The notes under the pieces are model-generated. The model was given only the letters and a program-made list of their open reading frames with translations, was not told the DNA's origin and did no database searches. A DNA stretch of 64,000 nucleotides from Syntrophorhabdaceae bacterium (lineage in GTDB: Bacteria > Desulfobacterota > Syntrophorhabdia > Syntrophorhabdales > Syntrophorhabdaceae), in contig DASXUJ010000075.1 in assembly GCA_036504895.1 (NCBI GenBank), forward strand, positions 1 through 64,000, in the 5' to 3' direction. The position numbers and the translations under genes were made by a program. Below are positions 22,155 to 53,562 of the stretch, piece by piece. Position 1 is the stretch's first letter, and each line of letters opens with the position of its first letter.

Positions 22155-22259
22155 ATTTGAGCGCGTGCGGGTTCGGGGGCAGTGATATCCCCGGAGGTGA
22201 TGCAGGATGGTCGGGCCGCCACCTGAAGATTTGAAAAGTCTTCAGGTGGCGGTTTTTTT
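22155..22259 (+). promoter_or_regulatory. leader with strong intrinsic terminator ahead of pentapeptide gene C
   Basis: A near-perfect stem (GCCGCCACCTGAAGA with TCTTCAGGTGGCGG, 22216-22252) followed by seven T residues is a textbook terminator. It lies 33 bases upstream of a start codon with no complete plus-strand gene before it. The preceding GGGG/CCCC hairpin and a GGAGGTG that could pair with the terminator arm suggest a short RNA or an attenuating leader. No known riboswitch consensus was recognised. Confidence 0.55.
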
Positions 22260-49046: not shown

Positions 49047-49893
49047 GGTTGAGGTTGAGGAAAGGCGGGAATCACTCGTAGTAATTCAAAATAAATATAG
49101 TCCAAGACAAAATGCGCAGGGTATGGGTAATTGGGAGCGGGCGGGCAGCCTGCGGGGTCAATTCCTTACGCTCCGGCTTGCTCCGGTGCTGACCCAAGAC
49201 GCTCTCAACTTCCTTTCGCTCAGCGCGCAGGTAGTTGGGAGCACAAGGTGAATTGATCGTCCGCGAACCGGCTGGTCTTGCGGGGCCCGATCCAACTATC
49301 CGGCGCTCATGCCGGCTACGCCGTCACCGGAAGTCTACGCTGCAGGGTCCCCAGCCCCTCCACAAAGTCGCTTCAGGAACCGACCCCGCAGACCGCCCGC
49401 AGTAGGTAGAGTATTTTTGGCCTATTCACTACAATTATGGAAGAAGTAGTCTTTTCGGAAGACACGGGAGTTTGTCACGGTGGTCAAGTACGTCCCCTCG
49501 GGGATTCCATAGCGCATCCGAAAAGTTTTTGAGTTGAATTTTCATCGGTTATGGAACAGAATAATTTTTATGCGCGAGGCTGTAGTATAGCGTTGCAGGA
49601 GGGTATAGAACGTCCGTATTCACAGCCATCGCCTTGCCGACTGCATGAAAGGTTACAAGTGGTATTTGTCGAGCAATTGCTGCATGCAGTATAACATCGG
49701 TATATTGACGATATACTGCAAATTCTACGGAATAACCTTCTCTCTGAAATAGATGGTATCTATGCGAATTTATGAATATTATCAGTCTATACTCGTTCAA
49801 CAATAATCATTGACATAGCTAACAGCAAATACTACTATTTCGGAAATTACTGCTTGCAGTATATTAATGTTAAGTTGCAGGGATGTAACCGCG
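49047..49893. other. non-coding left part of the accessory island, with GC-rich palindromes
   Basis: No convincing gene in 847 bases. It starts with a GGTTGA triplet repeat (49041-49065). From 49137 to 49400 it is GC-rich and full of palindromes, bounded by inverted copies of GCGGGCGG...CTGCGGGGTC. Inner boxes GGGTCA/TGACCC (49155 and 49188) and the CCACAAAGT-GCTTC text near 49360 resemble the attC at 51.57 kb, so these may be decayed cassette sites. The right half is AT-rich; a weak 84-codon minus-strand frame (49549-49803) lacks a ribosome site. Confidence 0.5.
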
Positions 49894-51930: not shown

Positions 51931-53562
51931 TTGTAATTTGAATATTGGGCGATCGGGGACGAGAGGTAGAGTAGAGAACTGGCGCCCTTGCCTGGAGCCG
52001 CTTCTGCGCTTTTCGATGCACGCATCTACTGCGGGCTATAGCGGTCATAGGGGAACTCCTGCGGGACGTTCGTGAAATTGTGACATTTGATATTCCCCCG
52101 GCGCATTAAGCGTCGCATATAGAATCTATTCTGTTCCACTGCGGATAATATTCAAGAAGAACTTTTTCGAAAGACGGTTAAAATGCCACATGAAAGCGTG
52201 TCCGTCACTCGTGGACGCCATAGGCACAATTTCAGGAAGCTGTACGTAGCACCTTCTGTAAAATCTGCCCTTCCCTCGATCTCACTCCACGGGGTCGGGA
52301 GGGCTTTATCCTCGTAGCGCCTTGCGAGTACCGTCGGGACCCGCTCGGTGAGGAGAAACGCTCCGAAGGACAGCCACTCATGTCTGAGGAGGTACGACGA
52401 GTTGGGTGGCTGAGTGCCCGACGAATCGTCTTTTAGCGGGTGACGGGCGCAGCCGAAGCGGAGAGGATAGAGCCCTCCCGGCGCCGTGCCTCCCCGTCAG
52501 GAAGCCCTAACTTCTTTGCCTTCCTGGCCGCACGCCCCCCAGACTTAAGGGACATCCTACTTATCACTAACAAAGTATTTTATTTGCATAGTTATTTAGT
52601 TGTGGACGTCCCCATCGCCGTCCCCATATTGACATTCACCATTACGCGCATGGCATGAGCGCGCCCAGGGGTGGGGCAAGCGTCTAAAGAGACATTTTTT
52701 CAACTGATTTAAAGGACCTCGGGAGGCCCTTTTGTTAGTCTTCACGAGACGCGACGGGTCGGATGTTTCTTTGAATCTCATGGACGGCTTTCTCGGGGAG
52801 ATAAATCCCCAATGATTTCGCGAAAACGAACCGACACCCCCCTCCCCCCCCATGGTGACTCACAAGAGGCACAAAGGTGTCCGCTCCACGGGCTGCGGTG
52901 AAGGCTGCTCTTTGACAATTGAATATCGGGATCGAGGGGGACGTCGTTGCGGGGCGCCGATAGGGACATCCTTCAGCATTTCAATTGGGAGCGGTGGGAC
53001 GTCCATAACTGAGGGCAAGACAGAGGGGTGGGCTGCGGCCATCAGATGTCTTGGCCATAACTTATCGAAGCAATTGACACCGGCACCGGACATTTTCCTG
53101 AATCAATCATTGACGCCTCGACTTACTTTTGGTTATTCTCGATTTCTCAGTCAGCAGGAGTCCAGAGCAACTCTGACGACAGAAAAGAAGTGAGGTACGG
53201 TCAATAGAATAAAAACGAGGCAGTGCCGCGGCGACGAATTAATGTGATACCTTTGGAGCCGCCTGCAGTGGAGGGCGGAATTGGCCGGAAGGTCCATATG
53301 GGGTGCCAGGCGAGCAAGGAGGACCGCAGGCGTATTGAATATACGTCGAAGGGCACCGGCGGAGCATGGCGCCGCAGATGGGCCTTTTGTGTCAATTCCA
53401 CCCTCCCGGCTAGAGCGAGGGTCTGGGACGTTGTTGCTCCGTTGCATAACTGAAACATGATGATTCGCCATCACGAGCCTCGCGAAGATACCACAGTAGC
53501 GACTTTTACAGGAGAGCGCTGAGTTCCTCCCTTTAGTTGTCTTCTAAAACGTGGCTATGCCC
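51914..53562. other. non-coding core of the accessory island with dispersed repeats
   Basis: About 1.65 kb without a convincing gene. It contains the structured RNA at 52295 and four related repeat copies: 51940-51961, 52598-52632 (inverted), 52921-52943 and 52981-53010, sharing GGGGACG or GGGACGTCC boxes next to AATAT/CAATT. The copies at 52598 and 52981 face each other and match over about 30 bases. Such boxes resemble the ends of REP-type or miniature elements. Confidence 0.5.
52295..52482 (+). ncRNA. orphan structured RNA, HEARO/omega-RNA-like
   Basis: An 18-20 bp closing helix pairs 52296-52313 (CGGGAGGGCTTTATCCTC) with 52463-52480, with one G-T. Inside are GCGCC/GGCGC (52317, 52446), CGTCGGG/CCCGACG (52332, 52417), CAGCCAC/GTGGCTG (52371, 52406) and GGAG/CTCC (52352, 52361). 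ACCCGCT (52339) pairs with AGCGGGT (52435) across the CCCGACG arm, making a pseudoknot. Size, pseudoknot and setting recall HEARO RNAs, the guide RNAs of IscB/IsrB nucleases. No such nuclease gene is present here. Confidence 0.6.

Follow-up and report, generated by a model that had tools for sequence, protein, structure and literature searches.

The pseudoknotted fold at 52295-52482 of the window, by which we mean the whole 64,000-nucleotide stretch of Syntrophorhabdaceae DNA analysed here, belongs to a multi-copy, intergenic family whose members insert at new sites, and we consider it probable that this family is a non-autonomous, protein-free, MITE-like mobile element with a conserved pseudoknotted fold on one strand as its body. 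Related genera have the folded core enclosed by IS1182-type inverted repeats, with 4-bp target duplications outside them, an arrangement that the copies of the genome itself do not share. The original prediction had presented the sequence as an orphan RNA resembling HEARO, the omega-RNA of IscB-type nucleases. The fold that it described is borne out by our analysis, whereas the orphan status does not hold and the HEARO identity is not supported. The parts of the element, and a second folded repeat in the window, are as follows.

52228-52284 (+), 5′ flank (TTTCAGGAAG...), common to most, not all, own-genome copies and holding part of the proposed guide
52285-52500 (+), conserved type 1 element of about 216 bp, present about 25 times in the genome (alignment A1)
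52288-52313 (+), 5′ arm of closing helix P1, pairing with 52463-52488; two-sided changes in 10 of 26 pairs
52329-52350 (+), hairpin P2 (52329-52333 with 52346-52350), whose loop holds the 5′ pseudoknot strand; variation one-sided only, 92% of cells paired
52339-52345 (+), 5′ pseudoknot strand ACCCGCT; two two-sided pairs in the own genome, three of seven with other genera added
52352-52364 (+), hairpin P3 (52352-52355 with 52361-52364); 90% of cells paired in the own genome, one two-sided pair across genera
52371-52412 (+), hairpin P4 (52371-52380 with 52403-52412), with a conserved apex (TGTCTGAG...CGACGAGTT); two-sided changes in 8 of 10 pairs across genera
52414-52450 (+), helix P5 (52414-52418 with 52446-52450), within which the 3′ pseudoknot strand lies; for the most part invariant, with 95% pairing in the own genome
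52435-52441 (+), 3′ pseudoknot strand AGCGGGT, with the same covariation as its 5′ partner
52463-52488 (+), 3′ arm of closing helix P1, pairing with 52288-52313 (own-genome alignment)
49125-49400 (-), second folded repeat (type 2), a remote relative found at about 13 places in the genome, with a weak match to model R2 at 49148-49391

Folding and the comparison of copies confirm that the closing helix, the inner hairpins and the seven-base pseudoknot are all present in 52295-52482, with the pseudoknot strands exactly where they had been placed. The closing helix had been drawn short: it really covers 26 positions, reaching about seven pairs further outward, and its ends form both borders of the conserved block (CTTCACGGGG.CGGGAGGGC ... 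GCCCTCCCG.CCCCGTGG). That the fold lies beyond chance is supported by a minimum free energy of -96.8 kcal/mol against a mean of -74.0 for shuffled sequences (z = -5.1; 0 of 200 shuffles as good) and by covariation among homologous copies, the absence of which was to have counted against the prediction, in the form of compensatory changes in the closing helix, P4 and the pseudoknot. Across 13 own-genome copies, 95.9% of paired cells are complementary, compared with 40-43% when the partners are slid by 1-3 columns, and 14 pairs show two-sided changes as opposed to 5.6 in shuffles; one pseudoknot pair changes from G-C to A-U in 5 of these copies and another from U-A to C-G in 2. When two other genera are added, two-sided changes extend to 25 pairs and 88 cells, against 29 in shuffles. 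Judged by these aligned copies, the fold is under selection. The type 2 repeat likewise covaries, with two-sided changes in 19 pairs. A hairpin predicted by RNAalifold inside P5 does not belong to the conserved core, because it competes with the pseudoknot and is partly deleted in some copies. Elsewhere in the window, a candidate nhaA-I riboswitch at 22169-22223 (+) scores above the Rfam gathering threshold.

The own-genome alignment also points to the strand that folds. On the strand chosen in the original prediction, G·U pairs are retained in 63 cells against 6 for A·C, corresponding to 26 against 6 pairs, and since G·U is kept and A·C is not, the sense strand is the folding strand. This tally fits RNA and single-stranded DNA alike. 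It is weak on the wide alignments A5 and A7 (151:96 and 194:164), a weakness probably due to misalignment of P1 from one subfamily to another, and we relied on the clean own-genome alignment.

Far from being an orphan, the element has about 25 dispersed, intergenic copies in its own genome, as the search for further copies proposed with the prediction reveals; most are 75-96% identical across about 190-215 bp, and some are truncated. Genomes from four other genera carry 23, 20, 20 and 13 copies. Model R1 finds matches in 17 of 46 genomes of the order, with up to 25 copies each, and model R2 in at least 24 of 395 genomes sampled from the phylum, a lower bound as only the best few candidates per genome were scored. 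Distant members retain the P4 apex (TGTTTGAG...CGAGTT) and, in many cases, the ACCC/GGGT strands of the pseudoknot, while their stems are wholly different, and those compared with Rfam match no family. A first, strict contig pattern gave no match; the named records matching a second pattern are Deltaproteobacteria MAGs, such as UBA7527. A single Lachnospiraceae match failed the R2 model and was taken as chance, and no match was found among the plasmids, phages and viral contigs searched. Two copies, L011:3716-4054 (-) and L013:7182-7518 (-), share the same extra insert, apparently structured and about 150 nt long, close to the P4 base. The P4 loop is interrupted in L021 (end of C40), L011 (end of C34) and L022 (start of C78), where the contigs break. 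We considered this large P4-loop insertion (C78, C40, C34) as an autonomous form of the element and rejected it; the likelier explanation is that an unrelated insertion sequence, bounded by CTATG..TAAAAG, landed there.

The original prediction had offered a non-autonomous mobile element as an alternative, and this is the part of its interpretation that dispersed copies, empty sites and, in related genomes, transposon ends with 4-bp target duplications now favour. The comparison of empty sites that it called for yields two loci in the genus of G024. At the first, the element is present in G024, G027 and G033, whereas G010, G029 and G031 have an uninterrupted site; at the second, the carB-carA gap, only G024 has the element and five other genomes are without it. 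These unoccupied sites in close relatives demonstrate insertion of the element. At the site occupied by the G033 element, G019 (L097) carries a different hairpin insert (GCACTTGTGTCGG...CCGACACAAGTGC).

The flanks of about 60 further copies revealed an outer frame whose 5′ end is CGGCCTGTTGCCCAAA and whose 3′ end is the complement of that sequence. These are IS1182-type ends, and the non-autonomous transposons that they delimit contain the folded core in several related genera. Of the 98 unique cores, CTGTTGCCCAAA ends border 30 on both sides, and each end counted singly is found at 35-38, compared with 0 and 1 in shuffled flanks. Exact 4-bp direct repeats (TTRA/TTTA/TAAA) adjoin 16 of the 30 two-ended cores, all of them elements of other genera, where permutation gives 4.5 and 0 of 20000 permutations reach as high a count. 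In the own genome, these ends are absent from the core copies and are found only on the insertion sequence itself and at one imperfect site; most own-genome copies have a different 5′ flank in common. At L080-L084, members of a distant family are bounded by ends of a further kind, so the core is not bound to a single transposase: the core is the constant part and the ends are the variable part. Core-free pairs of IS1182-type ends, 54-135 bp apart, also occur, and the core thus looks like a passenger of such elements.

The genome itself contains a 1.6-kb IS1182 element (C52:7264-8872) bounded by perfect ends of the same type, with no folded core inside it. Its 469-aa transposase scores 348 bits, above the NCBIfam IS1182 cut-off of 270, and close relatives in G018, G009 and G011 adjoin the same ends; in G024 and G007, by contrast, the matches are remote, at 32-33% identity, and have no such ends beside them. 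Of the 17 order genomes compared, all 6 with at least 7 copies have transposase relatives and the 11 poorer ones have none, a co-occurrence that is supportive only, since neither the genomes nor the copies are independent of one another by descent. No autonomous protein recurs as a neighbour of the RNA among the loci examined. We suggest that an IS1182 transposase could move core-bearing elements in trans, and that the own-genome copies may have been spread by another or older transposition vehicle. The folded strand would act as RNA or as single-stranded DNA, and might either promote the spread of the element or render its insertions between genes tolerable.

The same constancy of the core amid changing ends, IS1182-type in some genera and other types elsewhere, can be read differently. 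The phylum-wide pseudoknotted RNA module could itself be the selected unit, hitchhiking in unrelated transposon shells. As an RNA, it would promote its own spread or tolerance, for instance as a ribozyme or through binding to a protein of the host or to a transposase. We regard this as possible and hold it tentatively.

We find it unlikely that the element is a stand-alone regulatory RNA or a 3′-UTR antisense element of its neighbour genes, spread by transposition and then domesticated. Such a role would fit the conservation of the core across the phylum while the ends vary, and also the orientation of neighbours, the 3′-side gene lying on the opposite strand and running towards the element at 18 of 22 own-genome copies (binomial P = 0.002). 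However, this bias may also reflect selection against insertions that block transcription, the neighbour genes have no evident common function, sites are gained and lost, and no promoter better than chance was found for the folding strand.

In another reading, the element works as DNA rather than RNA, its single-stranded fold being mobilized, like REP elements, by a Y1 transposase of the REP-associated tyrosine type; this appears to us rather improbable. Y1 transposases are common in copy-rich genomes, with 7 in the own genome, and G·T pairs on one strand would fit single-stranded DNA too. At one suggestive locus, a REP-associated tyrosine transposase whose C terminus is fused to a DnaA-like domain (L217:748-1710, +) immediately follows a truncated 5′ piece of the element. 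Yet the core is nearby at only 1 of 50 Y1 loci overall, short of REP-like linkage, and Y1/RAYT was accordingly rejected as a linked partner; moreover, G037 has copies while a Y1 gene was not found there, and 30 copies bear DDE-type element ends.

A HEARO-like omega-RNA guiding an IscB, IsrB or TnpB nuclease encoded elsewhere would account for the similar size, the pseudoknot and the many copies, but is very improbable given what follows. The Rfam HEARO covariance model, the check proposed for this identity, gives no match at the locus up to E=10 and none in the genome, with the control giving matches below the cut-off in 2 genomes; no other Rfam family matches the locus up to E=10, and one miRNA match elsewhere in the stretch is put down to chance. 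The RRXRR domain of the IscB N-terminus was not found in 12 genomes, although the family model is equally silent in every control genome, and no nuclease gene was seen adjoining the copies examined. An omega-RNA guide is expected to differ at each insertion site. The proposed guide at 52275-52294, by contrast, overlaps the closing helix, lies partly within the conserved element and, across 14 copies at different sites, has a mean identity of 74% to the window, whereas identity among copies drops to 26% further downstream; in related genera, it falls within the transposon ends.

Returning to the mobile-element reading, the family can be set beside several known systems. It resembles HEARO (RF02033) in being pseudoknotted, about 200 nt long and multi-copy, but differs in lacking a covariance-model match, a variable 5′ guide and an adjoining HNH/RuvC gene. 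It is connected to the IS1182 family through the element ends in related genera, which match the IS1182 ends of this genome; in contrast, the insertion sequence has no folded core, and the own-genome core copies have no IS1182 ends. Being non-coding, short, multi-copy and polymorphic in insertion at two loci, the family resembles MITEs, and the terminal inverted repeats and direct repeats of its related-genus members are MITE-like as well. The Chunjie MITE of Geobacter uraniireducens, at 178-235 bp (PMC10969869), is likewise short, non-coding, intergenic, comparable in size and present in tens of copies; our element is set apart, by description rather than by sequence, in that its body is a complex pseudoknotted fold found phylum-wide with varying ends. 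Mobile/repeat sequence candidates (MRSC), which are structured repeat candidates, share with it a covarying structured motif, dozens of copies and an inconsistent gene context, but MRSC-65-2, the one among them covered by this comparison rather than the other 249 candidates, has a single long stem instead of a multi-helix pseudoknot (PMC11109978). The multicopy intergenic sequences of Geobacter, some predicted to be RNA or having inverted-repeat ends, are akin to it as multicopy intergenic sequences of Deltaproteobacteria; in the portions of these reports consulted, no pseudoknot is described, the comparison being by description and not by alignment (PMC2700814, PMC2996986). Partial overlap with an already described repeat is possible, and the family, being without an Rfam match, would form a new annotation class. 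The usual picture of a bacterial MITE is of filler framed by transposon ends. The interior of this family is instead a covarying pseudoknotted fold that persists across the phylum while the ends change, which offers a way to test whether functional RNAs are carried by short mobile elements.
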